This document shows, piece after piece, positions 817 to 56,984 of a stretch of DNA of 64,000 bases. The notes beneath the pieces were generated by a model, which did not search any database, was not told the DNA's origin, and worked only from the letters and a program-made list of their open reading frames with translations. Source of the stretch: Tychonema bourrellyi FEM_GT703 (GTDB lineage Bacteria; Cyanobacteriota; Cyanobacteriia; Cyanobacteriales; Microcoleaceae); contig NZ_NXIB02000003.1 of assembly GCF_002412335.2 (NCBI RefSeq), positions 5,741 through 69,740 of the forward strand, given 5' to 3'. The position numbers were made by a program, and so were the translations under genes. Within the stretch, counting starts at the first letter, position 1; each line of letters begins with the position of its first letter.

Positions 817-3800
817 CACCACAAAGGGTTGAATGGGCGCGCCACCATCGCCTCCAGCGTGTGTAATTGTGATATTTCCACCACCGGTGCCGCCAGCAGT
901 AGAAATGCTAGCAAATCCCGTCGGTGACAAACTTGTTGGGAAAGAATCTGTAGCGCCGAAAAATCCCCCTGTGGATGAAATAGAAACATCGCCACCGGTG
1001 CCGCTAGTGCCGCCTTGGGCATTGATGAAACCGACTTGAATATCGCCGATCGGATCTAAGGAAACATTACCACCATTTCCGACTGTAGCACTAGAGTTGA
1101 TTTGTCCGGCTGTAATTGAATTTTTAGCTACAACGGTGATGTTACCGCCAATATTTCCCGATGTATTCAAATTTCTCACATTCACTGTGCCCGCTGGACT
1201 CAAAAGTGCGATCGATCCTCCATTTCCCGAATTAGAAGCAGTAACATCTCCCAAAAGATTGATATTTCCCGTACTATTTACTTCCAAGTTTTGGGCGTTA
1301 ATTGTCGAATTGGCTGTCACATTGCCAGCATTTGCGATCGTCAGATTTCCTAGCTGTCTCGTAGCGCCCACTGGTGCGCCGAAAGTAACGCTGCCACTAC
1401 CTGCTGCCAGATTTAGATCGAAACTGCCATTAATACTGTCGATCGCCCCTCCAAAGGCAATATTTCCCCCTCCAGAACTCAATTTCGCATTTTGGCTTAA
1501 CCCCAAAGCGCTGTTAATAGTAATCTCCCCGTTATTCGTGGTAACATTACCACCTAAATTAGTATTTGAAGCAGTAACATTCAAACCAGAAAGTGCTGTA
1601 GTTTGTCCGATATTTCCTTGTAGCAGCACATTACCTTTACCAGCATCAATGTTTAAGCGCCGATCGCCGTCGATCGCACCTGTTACACTAACATTACCTG
1701 CACCACTACTGATCGCAACATCATTGCCGACTTTGACATTACCATTAATAGCGATATTATTAGTTGTACTGATGCCACCGTTCAGACTCAACGTGGGAGC
1801 ATTAAGAGTGATGCTGCTGTTGTCATTTCCGGTAATATTGCCGCTAAGTGCGATCGAACCAGTTTTCGTTTGAATATTTACCGGATCGGAAAAAGTGAGA
1901 TTATTAGGAATAGTAATATTCCCGGTACTATCCGATCGCCCAATAGTAATCGAACTAAATCCATTTTGAATCAAATTCATTTCCGATGCGGTCAAATCCA
2001 AAGCCACAGTATTATTGTCAGTCCCACCAACAACAATATTTTGTCCTGCGGTTGCGGGTTGCAGCGTTAGCGCATTAGTACCAGAAACTTGCCCAGAAAA
2101 ATCAATTTCGCCTGCGGTGAGACTCAGCGCATTATTTCCGGCGGCTAAAGTTGAACCGAAAGCAATCTTTGCATTTCCCAGTCCAAAAGTGACAGGAGCA
2201 TTTAATGTCACCGGGCCACTAAAACTAATATTATCATTAGTTGTATTAATATTTCCATTCAGTGCCACACTTCCCGCGCCATTTTGAATAAAAGCACCGT
2301 CTAAATTGAGATTATTTGAAATATTGAGATTACCAGTATTGCTAAGAGTTAGCGTACCGTTATTCGTGGTGGTTAAAGTCTGTTGTAAATTAATAGTATC
2401 ACCGGAAATGCCGACATTGCCAGCTACGTTAACCGCTGAATTAGCATTGATAATTTTTCCGCTAATTTGCAGCCCGCTTACAGAACTAGAATTGCCGATC
2501 GCACCTGTGAATGTAACATTACCACTTCCCCCATTTACAGTCAAATTGCTATTGCCATTAACTGTATTATCAAAAGTAATACCGTTACCTGCAAGAGTCG
2601 GATTGTTGGCAATTGTGACTGCATCTCCGTAAGTTTGAGTGCTGGTGGTTGTGACATTACCATTCAGTTGAGTTGTACCGCCAGCATTAGTGGTTAAACT
2701 GTTAGCGGTGACAGCATTAAATGTAGTTGTACCAGAAGTATTGGCGGTGAGATTTCCTAATGCGGTGGTGTTGCCGATCGCACCTGTGAACGTAACATTA
2801 CCAGTACCCGCGTTCAGAGTCAAATTGCTATTGCCATTAACTGTATCATTAAAACTAATAACATTACCTGCAATAGTCGGATTGTTGGCAATTGTGACTG
2901 CATCTCCGTAAGTCTGATTGCTTGTTGTTGTGACATTACCATTCAGTTGAGTTGTACCGCCAGCATTAGTGGTTAAACTGTTAGCGGTGACAGCATTAAA
3001 TGTAGTTGTACCAGAAGTATTGGCGGTGAGATTTCCTAATGCGGTGGTGTTGCCGATCGCACCTGTGAACGTAACATTACCAGTACCCGCGTTCAGAGTC
3101 AAATTGCTATTGCCATTAACTGTATCATTAAAACTAATAACATTACCTGCAATAGTCGGATTGTTGGCAATTGTGACTGCATCTCCGTAAGTCTGATTGC
3201 TTGTTGTTGTGACATTACCATTCAGTTGAGTTGTACCGCCAGCATTAGTGGTTAAACTGTTAGCGGTGACAGCATTAAATGTAGTTGTACCAGAAGTATT
3301 GGCGGTGAGATTTCCTAATGCGGTGGTGTTGCCGATCGCACCTGTGAACGTAACATTACCAGTACCCGCGTTCAGAGTCAAATTGCTATTGCCATTAACT
3401 GTATCATTAAAACTAATAACATTACCTGCAATAGTCGGATTGTTGGCAATTGTGACTGCATCTCCGTAAGTCTGAGTGCTCGTTGTTGTGACATTACCAT
3501 TCAGTTGAGTTGTACCGCCAGCATTGGTGGTTAAACTTTGGGAATTGACAGCATTAAATGTAGTTGTACCAGAAGTGTTTACGGTGAGATTTCCTAATGC
3601 GGTTGTGTTGCCGATCGCACCTATCACATCAATCTTTCCATTACCTGTTTCTAAGGTGAGATTGCCGCCGCCGTTAATGTTATTATTAAACAGAATATTG
3701 CCGCCTGCTGAATTACCAGTTCCCACCAAGACATTATTACCAACTATGGCATTGCCGTTAATTGTGATATTTTGAGATAGGGTGTTAATATTGCCATTTA

Positions 3801-31381: not shown

Positions 31382-31425
31382 ACTGGGATTAACTGAGATT
31401 TTGCACCAATGTCAATTAGCTTTTT

Positions 31426-31641
31426 ATGAACAGGCAAGATGCCTGTTCCACAAAGATTAAATTTCTTGTGGAACAGGCATCTTGCCTGTTGCTGTTGATG
31501 AACAGGCAAGATGCCTGTTCCACAAAGATTAAATTTCTTGTGGAACAGGCATCTTGCCTGTTGCTGTTGATGAACAGGCAAGATGCCTGTTCCACAAAGA
31601 TTAAATTTCTTGTGGAACAGGCATCTTGCCTGTTGCTGTTG
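31426..31641. repeat. Three perfect tandem copies of a 72-bp palindromic unit
   Basis: Units start at 31426, 31498 and 31570. Each contains AACAGGCAAGATGCCTGTT, a CCACAAAGATTAAATTTC spacer, and the inverted GGAACAGGCATCTTGCC arm. The copies look identical, so amplification is very recent. Short ORFs predicted on both strands are repeat translations. The array separates the COG2509 gene from convergent xisI. Confidence 0.95.
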
Positions 31642-31656
31642 ATGTAAAATCTCAGA

Positions 31657-43089: not shown

Positions 43090-43220
43090 TTAATTAGAAG
43101 AAGGAAGTTCGGCAACGGATTATGTAACGGATTTAACGGATGTAACGGATGTAACGGATGTGAGTAATCGAGGACACGGCAATGCCGTTTCCCTACCCCA
43201 AAATAATCATGTAGGGACAC

Positions 43221-43435
43221 GGCATTGCCCATTGGTGTCAACTTAAGCTAAAACCCAGTTACAGACTGCTGTTTGACGATTAAGGCCAGATCCCCCCTAA
43301 CCCCCCTTAAGAAGGGGGGGACAGGAGTCCGATCAAAGTCCCCCTTCTTAAGGGGGATTTAGGGGGATCTAGACTTAGGTAAAGGCTAGAGATACCAAGG
43401 ATTTTAGGCTTAAGTTGACACCTATGGGCATTGCC
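43221..43435. repeat. 215-bp nested palindrome containing the 81-bp dispersed core
   Basis: Outer arms GGCATTGCCCATTGGTGTCA and the complement ending GGGCATTGCC match at about 26 of 28 positions through ACTTAAGC/GCTTAAGT. Inside lies the 81-bp core (43289-43369) that also occurs, inverted, at 8531-8611. The rest of the gap 43090-43448 has GTAACGGAT nonamer repeats (43120-43160) and a GACACGGCA half palindrome. No ORF. Confidence 0.85.
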
Positions 43436-52487: not shown

Positions 52488-53660
52488 ATGCTAAATCCTA
52501 ATCTGGACGAGATCCAGCTCAACAAAGAAGAATACGAACGCTACTCTCGCCACCTCATCCTCCCAGAAGTAGGATTGGATGGACAGAAGCGCCTCAAAGC
52601 AGCCAGCGTACTCTGCATCGGTACAGGAGGACTCGGTTCGCCACTACTGCTGTATTTAGCCGCCGCAGGGATTGGTCGCATTGGGATTGTAGACGACGAT
52701 GTTGTAGACCATTCCAATTTGCAACGCCAAGTAATTCACGGCACATCTTGGGTAGGTAAACCGAAGATTGAATCGGCTAAAAATCGGATTTTAGAAATTA
52801 ATCCTTTTTGCCAAGTTGACCTGTACGAAACTCGTATTAGTTCCGAAAATGCGATCGCAATTACCACACCCTACGACATCGTAATCGACGGCACCGACAA
52901 CTTCCCGACTCGCTATTTGATGAACGACGTTTGCGTGCTTTTAAATAAGCCCAACGTCTACGGTTCCATCTTCCGATTTGAAGGACAAGCCACCGTTTTC
53001 AACTACGAAGGTGGCCCGAATTACCGAGATTTGTACCCAGAACCACCACCTCCGGGAATGGTACCTTCTTGTGCAGAAGGCGGCGTTTTAGGCGTTTTGT
53101 GCGGAATTATAGGCACTATCCAAGCCACAGAAGCAATCAAAATTATCTTGGGTCAAGGCACTACTTTGAGCGGTAGACTGTTGCTTTATAATGCCTTAGA
53201 TATGACATTCCGACAATTGAAATTGCGGCCGAATCCAGTACGTCCAGTAATTGAAAAGCTGGTCGATTATGAACAATTCTGCGGAATTCCTCAAGCAAAA
53301 GCACAGGAAGCAAATCAGCAAATGCAAATTCCTGAAATGACCGTCACGGAACTTAAGGAATTAATCGATAGCGGTGCGAAAGATTTCGTATTGTTAGATG
53401 TTCGCAATCCTAACGAATATCAAATTGCTCAAATTCCTGGGTCAGTATTAGTACCATTACCGGATATTGAAAACGGCAATGGTATTGAGAAAGTCAAAGA
53501 ATTGTTGAATGGCCACCGATTGATTGCACATTGCAAAATGGGCGGACGTTCTGCGAAAGCCTTGGGAATTTTGAAGGAAGCTGGAATTGAGGGGATTAAT
53601 GTTAAAGGCGGAATTACGGCTTGGAGTCAAGAAGTAGATCCGTTAGTACCTCAATATTAA
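52488..53660 (+). CDS. moeB: Molybdopterin-synthase adenylyltransferase MoeB with rhodanese domain
   Basis: 390 residues. The E1-like domain (about 1-265) has the ATP loop IGTGGLGSPLLLYLAAAG, the DDDVVDHSNLQRQ block and the adenylation Arg nearby. The rhodanese domain (about 285-388) has the active Cys in AHCKMGGRSAKAL. It activates the C-terminal Gly of MoaD or ThiS-like carriers by adenylation and then sulfurates them, as in Uba4/MOCS3. The short zinc-binding CxxC motifs of classical MoeB are not all visible. Operon-like with the JAMM peptidase. Confidence 0.94.
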   Translation: MLNPNLDEIQLNKEEYERYSRHLILPEVGLDGQKRLKAASVLCIGTGGLGSPLLLYLAAAGIGRIGIVDDDVVDHSNLQRQVIHGTSWVGKPKIESAKNRILEINPFCQVDLYETRISSENAIAITTPYDIVIDGTDNFPTRYLMNDVCVLLNKPNVYGSIFRFEGQATVFNYEGGPNYRDLYPEPPPPGMVPSCAEGGVLGVLCGIIGTIQATEAIKIILGQGTTLSGRLLLYNALDMTFRQLKLRPNPVRPVIEKLVDYEQFCGIPQAKAQEANQQMQIPEMTVTELKELIDSGAKDFVLLDVRNPNEYQIAQIPGSVLVPLPDIENGNGIEKVKELLNGHRLIAHCKMGGRSAKALGILKEAGIEGINVKGGITAWSQEVDPLVPQY

Positions 53661-53691
53661 GTCCTATCAATTCCCGTTACACAGTCAGGTG

Positions 53692-53745
53692 ACTGTTGAC
53701 TGTTGACTGTTGACTGTTGACTGTTGACTGTTGACTGTTGACTGT
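53692..53745. repeat. Heptamer repeat TGTTGAC, about seven copies
   Basis: Uninterrupted ACTGTTGACTGTTGACTG steps after moeB. Same heptamer as at 18630 on the opposite strand. Confidence 0.9.
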
Positions 53746-53791
53746 TTGAACAATACCGATGCAACCGGAAACGATAGTCAAATCTTCTCGT

Positions 53792-54110
53792 CGTATTGAG
53801 ATCAAAAATAAGGACACAACATTGTTGTGTCCCTACCCAATATTTGTATTGCGATCAAAAATAAGGACACAACATTGTTGTGTCCCTACCCAATATTTGT
53901 ATTGCGATCAAAAATAAGGACACAACATTGTTGTGTCCCTACCCAATATTTGTATTGCGATCAAAAATAAGGACACAACATTGTTGTGTCCCTACCCAAT
54001 ATTTGTATTGCGATCAAAAATAAGGACACAACATTGTTGTGTCCCTACCCAATATTTGTATTGCGATCAAAAATAAGGACACAACATTGTTGTGTCCCTA
54101 CTCAATATTT
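53792..54110. repeat. Six tandem copies of a 53-bp palindromic unit
   Basis: GCGATCAAAAATAAGG recurs at 53851, 53904, 53957, 54010 and 54063, exactly 53 bp apart, plus a GAGATC variant at 53798. Each unit carries the perfect palindrome GACACAACATTGTTGTGTC and ends CCTACCCAATATTTGTATT. A diverged palindrome (GACACAGCACTGCTGTGTC) follows at about 54122-54142. No unique spacers, so not CRISPR. Located between the 3' ends of convergent moeB and clpC. Confidence 0.95.
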
Positions 54111-54149
54111 GTATTCGGTAGGGACACAGCACTGCTGTGTCCTTCTCGA

Positions 54150-56615
54150 TTAAACGCTCAAAGCGAGTTCAGGTAATTTGGGTTCCGATGAATCACCGGG
54201 TAACACCTTCACCACACCGTTTTCATCCACATCCACGATCGCACTTTGGCCTTCTTTCAGCTTACCAGACAACATTTCCTCAGCCAGTACATCCTCCAGC
54301 AATCGCATAATTGCGCGTCGCAAAGGCCTCGCACCATAACTGGGATTGTAGCCTTCTTTAACTAACAGTTCCTTGAATGCTTCTGTCACAGACAAGGTAA
54401 TATCCTGTTCCGTTAAGCGGGTGAAAAGCTGCTGCAACATGATATCCGCAATCTGCTTAACTTCTTCCTTATTCAACTGGCGGAAGACGATAATTTCATC
54501 CAAGCGGTTGAGGAATTCGGGACGGAAGAACTGTTTTAATTCTTCGTTTACCAAGTTCCGAACGCGGTTGTATTGACCATCTGCGGCATCTTCAGTAAAC
54601 TCAAAACCGAGACCACCGCCGCCTTTTTCAATCACTCGCGAACCGAGGTTGGAAGTCATAATCAGTAGCGTATTCTTGAAGTCAACTGTCCGACCTTTGG
54701 CATCAGTCAATCGGCCGTCTTCTAGGATTTGCAGCATCATGTTGAAGACATCCGGGTGCGCTTTTTCGATTTCGTCGAATAAGACTACTGTGTAAGGACG
54801 ACGACGGACTGCTTCTGTTAGTTGGCCGCCTTCATCGTAGCCCACGTAACCCGGAGGTGAACCGATCAGTTTGGAAACCGTGTGGCGTTCCATATACTCG
54901 GACATATCTAACCGAATCATCGCGTCTTCGGAACCGAAGAAATAAGTTGCTAAAGCTTTTGTTAGTTCGGTTTTGCCGACGCCTGTGGGGCCGGAAAAGA
55001 TGAAACTGGCGATCGGGCGATTGGGATTTTTCAACCCTACCCGCGCGCGACGGATGGCCTTAGAAACTGCGGTGACAGCTTCTTCTTGACCGATTAAACG
55101 CTGGTGCAAAGTGTCTTCCATGTGCAGCAGCAATTCCGATTCCGATTCTGTCAGTTTGCTGACTGGTACTCCCGTCCAATTCGCCACGATGTGGGCGATG
55201 TCTTCTTCGGTGACGATGGGAGAGATTCTGACTTGGCTTTTGTTGATTGTCGCTTCGGCGATTTCGGCTTCAATTGCTAATTCGCGATCGCGCAATTTGC
55301 TAGCTTTCTCGAAGTCTTGTTCCCGAACAGCGATATCCTTTTCTTTGGTGACAGCCGGCAGTCGTTTTTTGAGTTCTTTAACTTCTGGCGGGGTTTGCGA
55401 ATTCAGCACATGAACGCGGGAACCTGCTTCGTCAATTAAGTCGATCGCCTTGTCGGGCAAAAATCGATCGTTAATGTATCTGTCTGACAGTGTAGCCGCT
55501 GCTTCTAAGGCTGCATCGGAAATCGTCAATTTATGATGTTGTTCGTAAGCCGATCGCAAACCATACAATATTTCGATCGTTTCAGCCACACTCGGTTCGC
55601 CAACTTTTATCGGTTGGAAACGCCGTTCTAGGGCTGCATCACGTTCGATATACTTCCGATATTCATCAAGCGTAGTAGCGCCAACACACTGCAATTCGCC
55701 TCTGGCAAGTGCTGGTTTAAGCATATTGGAGGCATCCATACTGCCTTGAATAGCTCCTGCACCAACTAAAGTATGAATTTCATCAATTACCAGAATGATG
55801 TTGCCTGCTGCGCGAATTTCCGCCATGATTTTCGTCAGGCGTTCTTCAAATTCCCCACGGAATTTTGTCCCTGCAATCAGCGAACCCATATCGAGGCTGA
55901 TTACTTGTTTGTCTTCCAAAATTTCCGGGACGTTTCTGTTGACAATCCGCTGGGCGAGTCCTTCGGCGAGGGCAGTTTTGCCTACTCCCGGTTCGCCGAC
56001 TAGCACGGGGTTATTCTTGGTGCGACGGCCGAGCACTTGAATGACGCGCTCGATTTCGTTTTCGCGGCCCACGACTGGATCGAGTTTACCTTGGGCGGCT
56101 AACTTCGTGAGGTTTGTGCCAAATTCTTCTAAAGTCGGGATTTTGCGATCGCTACTTTGACGGCCTCCTGAAACCGCCGCCACTTCTCCCACGGCACGAA
56201 TTACCTGGGTGCGGACTCTAGAGCGATCGATCCCCAAGTTTTGTAGCACTTTAGCGGCGACACCTTCATCGTCCTGAATCAGTCCCAACAAGATATGTTC
56301 AGTGCCGATGTAATTGTGGCCCAACTGCCGCGCTTCATTCAGCGCCGTCTCAAAAATCCGCTTAACGCGAGGCGTAAACGGAATTTCAGGCGGTAGAAAA
56401 CCCGATCCCCTACCGATGATATTTTCGATTTCATTGCGCGCCTCTTTCAAGTTGAGGCCCATTTCCAGTAAGACTTTTGCAGCGATGCCAGTGCCTTCGC
56501 CCACAAGTCCCAACAGGATTTGCTCAGTGCCCACAAAATTATGGCCGAGGCGACGCGCTTCCTCTTGGGCTAGCATTATTGCTTTAATGGCTTGTTCTGT
56601 AAAGCGTTCAAACAT
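54150..56615 (-). CDS. clpC: ATP-dependent Clp protease ATP-binding subunit ClpC
   Basis: 821 residues from the ATG at 56615, giving the standard [20 protein letters not shown] start; the frame runs 22 codons upstream. Two Clp-N repeats (about 1-150), AAA1 with [15 protein letters not shown], a UVR-like middle ([12 protein letters not shown]), AAA2 with [16 protein letters not shown]. The last domain ends in [23 protein letters not shown]100 unfoldase that feeds ClpP in cyanobacteria and plastids; the adaptor-interacting M segment is present. Monocistronic in this window. Confidence 0.97.
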
Positions 56616-56984
56616 ATTTTTTACCATCCTACTGAGTTGGCGAGGGCTGTATCGCTGCTGGTGAGGAGCGATTTGGAACAATACACAAATTATATATGTA
56701 AATTTTTGTGTATTTCCTACAATCTAATTTATCGCTGCTGATGATATGCCGACAATGAGGATAGCCGAATAGTCGAGGTGTGGTTGCCGTCCGACACAAA
56801 TATACACTGATTGAGGTTAAGTTGTCACCCGCGATCGGTAACAAACGCCCTTTTCAAATTGTACCGGATCAAAGGCGCTGTCAAGATTAACTGTTGTTTC
56901 CGCTCCGCCTAAAAATAAGTAGCCGTTAGGCCGTAACACTTGTCGCATCCTTACATTTGCGTACATCTGCGGTTTTACTCTTCT
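56616..56984. other. Gap upstream of clpC with a CheR remnant
   Basis: 369 bp: the clpC leader (56616-56815, A/T-rich, contains TATATATG and TACAATC sequences that may be promoter elements on the minus strand) and the CheR-like fragment at 56817-56948. No complete gene. Confidence 0.6.
56817..56948 (-). pseudogene. C-terminal remnant of a CheR-type methyltransferase gene
   Basis: The minus strand reads MRQVLRPNGYLFLGGAETT, then NLDSAFDPVQFEKGVCYRSR and a stop. This is the end of the CheR SAM-methyltransferase fold (Gly-Tyr-Leu-Phe-Leu-Gly strand before the final helix and strand). About 43 residues remain; the frame is closed upstream by a TAA near 56975, next to the M56 gene stop. The N-terminal 230 residues are missing, so it is a deletion relic, not a small gene. 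Confidence 0.65.

Follow-up and report, generated by a model that had tools for sequence, protein, structure and literature searches.

Why should six near-identical copies of a 53-bp palindromic sequence stand between two convergent genes of a cyanobacterium? The window analyzed here, a 64,000-nucleotide stretch of DNA from Tychonema bourrellyi FEM_GT703, contains such an array in the intergenic region between the 3′ ends of a moeB-like gene and clpC. The initial annotation had proposed three roles for it: a tandem terminator, a protein-binding array or a mobile repeat. We consider it very probable that the array is the product of a local tandem amplification, in which one half of a tail-to-tail dimer of GTAG-type, RAYT-associated REPs was multiplied. 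REPs of this type are short hairpins that are thought to be mobilized as single-stranded DNA by RAYT tyrosine transposases.

Tandem Repeats Finder (TRF) places the array at 53793–54115, with a period of 53, 6.1 copies and 99% match, and thereby bears out the six-copy, 53-bp array of the initial annotation. The convergent arrangement also stands: the moeB-like ORF ends at 53660 on the plus strand and clpC at 54150 on the minus strand. The period is exact as claimed, but the six units are not identical. Units 2–5 are the same, and the only two point differences in the array are GAGATC instead of GCGATC in unit 1 (A for C) and CTACTC instead of CTACCC in unit 6 (T for C). Beyond unit 6, five extra base pairs (GTATT) correspond to the start of a seventh unit. 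The same intergenic region holds 8.1 perfect copies of the heptamer TGACTGT (53690–53746). Other heptamer runs are numerous across the window, which also carries long tandem repeats at its start (1–683, period 18/78) and at 2492–3622 (279 bp × 4.1).

Each 53-bp unit comprises one GTAG-REP, half of the spacer of a tail-to-tail dimer and 19 bp of flank. On the minus strand it reads as GTAG plus a hairpin (GTAGGGACACAACAATGTTGTGTCC) with a 9-bp stem and a 3-nt loop (GTAG-GGACACAAC-AAT-GTTGTGTCC). The predicted folding energy of a single unit is −13 kcal/mol on the plus strand and −19.9 kcal/mol on the minus strand (z −3.4 and −5.0). The 19-mer that had been called a perfect palindrome is in fact a 9+1+9 inverted repeat, which differs from its own reverse complement at the center. 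Six exact copies are present; when three mismatches are allowed, the window contains 14 strand-matches against 0.01 in shuffled sequences, none of 100 shuffles reaching 14. The interval first assigned to the array (53792–54110) does cover the six units, but misses a related inverted palindrome at 54118–54142. This seventh REP shares the GTAG tetranucleotide that stands beside the stem in all six units, and forms with copy 6 a dimer that has its GTAG tags inside, an arrangement called tail-to-tail in PMC3733652. The 68-nt dimer stretch is predicted to fold at −37.2 (+) and −35.8 (−) kcal/mol (z −7.7 and −8.0).

The proposed link to the HIP1 element did not survive. GCGATC, said to be part of every unit, is present in five of the six; unit 1 has GAGATC, one relative also reads AGATC at this site, and the full octamer GCGATCGC is absent from all six units. 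The window as a whole has 52 occurrences of GCGATCGC, where base composition predicts 0.6, and an excess of HIP1 is usual in cyanobacteria. Comparison of the array with Rfam gave nothing near a gathering score (best sub-threshold E 0.00014, 33.9 of 70 bits). The sub-threshold list consisted mostly of hairpin-type miRNA and sRNA models, which we took as chance matches. No promoters were found in 53400–54500.

Table 1. Features of the moeB-clpC intergenic region and its flanking genes (window coordinates)
Feature	Position	Strand	Remark
moeB-like ORF (ThiF + rhodanese)	52488..53660	+	converges on array
Six tandem 53-bp units	53793..54110	−	REPs point to minus strand
GTATT, left short direct repeat	53793..53797	+	array edge, before GAGATC
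TTATTTTT	53804..53811	− (clpC sense)	directly after hairpin; terminator-like U tract, same in every unit
GTAG-REP, unit 1 (GTAGGGACACAACAATGTTGTGTCC)	53812..53836	−	
GTAG-REP, unit 2	53865..53889	−	
GTAG-REP, unit 3	53918..53942	−	
GTAG-REP, unit 4	53971..53995	−	
GTAG-REP, unit 5	54024..54048	−	
GTAG-REP, unit 6	54077..54101	−	left partner of tail-to-tail dimer
GTATT, right short direct repeat	54111..54115	+	array edge, before CGG
Seventh GTAG-REP (GTAGGGACACAGCACTGCTGTGTCC)	54118..54142	+	right partner of tail-to-tail dimer
clpC ORF	54150..56681	−	converges on array; 3′ end 7 nt from seventh REP

The initial annotation had suggested a search for single copies of the palindrome elsewhere, and this search uncovered a dispersed family. 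The pattern GTAGGGACACGGCANTGCCGTGTCC matched the host genome 109 times forward and 98 times in reverse with three mismatches allowed, and 93 and 74 times with two; the reversed control gave no match at up to three. These figures include some palindromes scored on both strands, so that the number of elements is below the number of matches. Sixty strict tail-to-tail dimers were found (control 0), with tandem copies counted singly. With at most two mismatches, the family is present in all 29 genomes of the genus, with 10–469 forward matches each, and in 28 of 148 sampled genomes of the order, representing 15 of 80 genera. The family form is GTAG + GGACACGGCANTGCCGTGTCC, of which the array carries an AAC/GTT stem variant. 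The 21-mer with this variant is rare: of 17 places at up to three mismatches, those outside the array include just one exact copy (C120) and one copy with a single mismatch (C129).

The stem appears to be conserved as a structure. Of 81 distinct copies from REP-selected loci, seven were interrupted and were dropped; among the 74 intact copies, nine of the ten stem pairs are Watson-Crick in 93–100%. At two of the pairs, joint double changes from G-C to A-T occur (13 and 6 copies), and the AAC/GTT stem of the array is a change of the same sort. Pair 7/21 counts against such conservation, being Watson-Crick in just 68% of the copies.

Elements of this kind have precedents in other bacteria. RAYT transposases have been proposed to move GTAG REPs (PMC8266576, PMC3733652), and the GTAG families GTAG-12, -15 and -16 are reported from filamentous and unicellular cyanobacteria (Di Nocera et al. 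2013, PMC3733652). As in that account, the repeats of the host have a terminal GTAG beside a short, small-loop stem and form dimers; the published REPs are mostly intergenic, and the array too lies between genes. In the host the family is seen largely as tail-to-tail dimers, and the comparison with the three named families is one of description, not of consensus sequence. The REPs and REPINs of Pseudomonas fluorescens SBW25 also form ordered tandem clusters with flanking sequence, as well as regularly spaced arrays made of one REP type (PMC3116915), whereas the host phylum and the REP sequence differ and the relatives of our organism show a single dimer. Our literature searches found no paper that links REP, RAYT and Microcoleus, no paper that contains the string GTAGGGACACGGC, and nothing relevant for Microcoleus combined with "repetitive extragenic palindromic".

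Which enzyme might move this family? Among 30 RAYT-like loci of the genus examined in a first survey, family REPs surrounded only one, L217 (G019). A protein search of the genus with L217 returned six genes with 81–100% identity in five genomes (G003, G013, G018, G019 and two genes in G026, one of them with a stop) and 20 more distant homologues with 39–45% identity; 12 further rows were fragments or weak matches and were set aside. Within 1 kb of each of the six closely related genes there are 7–23 family REPs, which lie on both sides of the gene; the 20 distant homologues have none. A few of the stretches fall short of 1 kb on one side. All five aligned copies that lack a stop share, without variation, the HxH motif and a late tyrosine (RQYI), which we take to be the catalytic residues. 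For the L217 clade, the match to Pfam Y1_Tnp reaches 26 bits, above the cut-off of 23. The NCBIfam model REP_Tyr_transpos (NF047646) scores L217, the G018 C45 copy and the G026 C127 copy at 50.9, 53.8 and 53.5 bits. Since all three values are below the cut-off of 80, we call this clade RAYT-like. A PDB search with L217 gave no match.

Judging from this gene neighborhood, the L217 clade is likely to be the mobilizing enzyme of the REP family. The five genomes that carry the clade contain 202–881 REP matches (forward plus reverse) versus 22–243 in the 24 that do not (one-sided Mann-Whitney p 1e-4), a comparison in which the genomes are related and the gene-flanking REPs are themselves included in the totals; we therefore use it as support only. 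One clade-bearing genome, G013, ranks 9th of 29. The order-level survey did not extend the link: among 29 loci at E ≤ 1e-40, several REPs surround only L313, which is the L217 gene itself, two loci (L314 and L317) have REPs in or near the gene, and the other 26 have none. L314 and L317 belong to two genomes of the order and have REP-like palindromes within the RAYT-like gene that was matched (around 1799 and 1714, respectively), possibly as in-frame insertions.

The clade was not detected in the host assembly, which is 92.5% complete; the best match (21.7 bits) was to another RAYT. The family in the host may therefore be a remnant, or the RAYT-like gene may lie in the missing part of the assembly. 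We discarded three other host proteins as mobilizers. The one strong RAYT of the host (C217, 209 bits) has another GTAG hairpin, GTAGGTTGGGTTGAGGAACGAAACCCAAC, in its own flanks, and a Y1_Tnp protein (C68) and an IS200-like protein (C144) have no family REP within ~1.5 kb on each side. The strong-RAYT locus (L049/L190, G000:C217) contains four copies of GTAGGTTGGGTTGAGGAACGAAACCCAAC: a second REP-RAYT pair. Other RAYTs of the genus (L197, L198, L199, L202 and L204) stand beside arrays of GTGGCACAGGCATCTTGCCTGTG, and the window itself contains a 72-bp, 3.1-copy array of a similar palindrome, CAGGCATCTTGCCTGTT, at 31419–31644. REPtron or TnpA-REP systems likewise have GTAG REP hairpins around a Y1 transposase-like gene, and their group 3 REPs are perfect palindromes, near to the host form (PMC8266576). 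Unlike those systems, the L217 clade falls below the NCBIfam cut-off and escapes detection in the host assembly. Overall, these observations favor the mobile repeat among the roles first proposed: the unit holds a GTAG-REP of a dispersed family, and a RAYT-like gene lineage lies in the midst of this family.

We then asked how a REP dimer may have become an array. Three relatives (Microcoleus EPA2, Microcoleus CAWBG506 and the metagenome assembly PH2015_13D; loci L057, L058 and L063 in genomes G017, G018 and G001) carry one dimer directly beside clpC and no array. Their layout is ATCAAAAATAA, a truncated REP, CTAC, spacer, GTAG and a REP. The ATCAAAAATAA flank is as in the host, the spacer is similar, and the left REP lacks its far arm. 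In the nearest relative (L050 in G007, with 96% identical moeB), REP pieces flank an inserted element. Of the five genomes in this group, only the window's genome has the array. Because three relatives carry one dimer without an array, we regard the array as the derived state. The common ancestor would have had one dimer between moeB and clpC; its left REP, truncated in the relatives, would have been intact. The GTATT repeats on either side of the left REP and the spacer could then have mediated slippage in replication, or recombination by short homology, which multiplied the left half of the dimer to six copies. Direct repeats such as GTATT at the edges are expected of either process around a hairpin.

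REPs have formed arrays at other places as well. In the host genome we found REP arrays with periods of 36 bp (6.1 copies, C227), 42 bp (3.5 copies, C234), 63 bp (6.6 copies, C77) and 22 bp (6.2 copies, C6), and another genome has REP arrays with periods of 53 and 40 (G010:C38). Given these arrays, and those described in Pseudomonas (PMC3116915) and in other bacteria (PMC3733652), the formation of arrays is a general tendency of REPs and not peculiar to the moeB-clpC locus.

The element inserted at the moeB-clpC locus of the nearest relative has ends (CATTAGTRTCAACTTAAG) of the kind found on a 197-bp element, which also occurs in the window. Here, the right REP of another dimer from this family (43172–43235) is split by the element (43230–43426), whose ends are CATTRGTGTCAACTTAA, one of them with a mismatch, and whose 9-bp target site, GGCATTGCC, is duplicated. 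When up to one mismatch is allowed, the end sequence matches the host genome 195 times forward and 193 times in reverse (control 0). In host loci that were partly REP-selected, 55 of 79 distinct element ends follow GGCANTGCC, the top of the REP, and a perfect duplication of 9 bp flanks 18 of the 32 complete copies; several other copies sit in other palindromes. The element resembles a MITE that targets REP hairpins, and there are known insertion sequences with REPs as their targets (PMC1525189). An 843-bp relative with similar ends (L155, 1637–2479) contains a 186-aa open piece with a weak match to DDE_Tnp_1 (24.3 bits, cut-off 23), which hints at a parent transposase.

If the array originated by amplification of half a dimer, it could still serve a function. 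The most serious candidate is termination of clpC transcription. On the clpC strand every hairpin, with five G-C pairs, is followed by TTATTTTTGATC, as in the sequence of an intrinsic terminator, whereas the moeB (+) strand has no T run. A standard terminator scan called none in the array, probably because extension of the stem absorbs the T's; a second scan of our own called six. Seven T within 10 nt after the hairpin occur in only four of the 74 intact family copies, two of them from the array, and so the tract is a local feature. We compared the 3′ side of clpC in 27 of the 29 genomes of the genus, as the other two gave matches of 72–74% identity, which we took to be a paralogue. In 21 of the 27, a terminator hairpin (AAACCCGGTT..AACCGGGTTTTT) follows the clpC stop at 32–49 nt. 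The five genomes of the window's group lack this canonical hairpin and instead have a REP 7–19 nt after the stop; one genome has neither. These five are also the only ones of the 27 with moeB within the 1.5-kb clpC flank, which implies that the group differs by a rearrangement, with the REP at the junction. Because the seven-T tail is rare in the family and the terminator of the relatives is absent here, a locus-specific terminator role of the REP at clpC is plausible, as judged from sequence; six copies are unneeded for it. Of the tandem terminator first proposed, only the part that concerns the clpC strand is therefore plausible. Each copy, with its hairpin and TTATTTTT, may serve as a clpC terminator, and the copies beyond the first would probably be redundant and neutral.

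It is a different matter whether the array is kept as a multi-copy terminator, which would have replaced the one lost when clpC was joined to moeB and whose extra copies would cut read-through into antisense moeB. We find this reading rather unlikely: three of the five group members manage with one dimer and one with an insertion, so that many copies seem unneeded, and tandem REP arrays occur at other loci too. A more elaborate course of events, in which clpC and moeB were joined at the REP dimer, the old terminator was lost, the palindrome took over, and tandem growth was then favored by reduced read-through, strikes us as improbable. Improbable to a still greater degree is an assembly artefact, in which one or two copies became six or a larger number collapsed to six. 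The host assembly is a 5.08-Mb draft in 271 contigs, and the 319-bp array exceeds common short reads, so the copy number could be off; however, units 1 and 6 differ from units 2–5, and several REP arrays with other periods exist in the host and in the second genome. We give the least credit to an array of iteron-, operator- or gyrase/IHF-site-like protein-binding sites that organizes DNA at this locus. The regular 53-bp spacing, about five helical turns, and the palindromic units would suit such a role, and REPs of E. coli do bind host proteins. Against it, the array lies between convergent 3′ ends, has no sequence tie to a replication or regulator gene, is built from a unit of a dispersed family and is represented by a single dimer in relatives. 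Amplification of half a REP dimer is the reading that we retain.

The array itself is ordinary for REPs, and the kind of element has already been described in bacteria. What this locus adds is the single-dimer state in relatives, the tie between a RAYT-like clade and the family, and a terminator replacement that can be tested. One locus thus captures the step from a dispersed REP dimer to a tandem array, with relatives that keep the single dimer, and an abundant palindrome family of the Microcoleus group is tied to a specific clade of RAYT-like genes. Whether a protein of the L217 type moves this family, and whether a mobile hairpin has replaced a terminator, are now testable questions in cultivable filamentous cyanobacteria.
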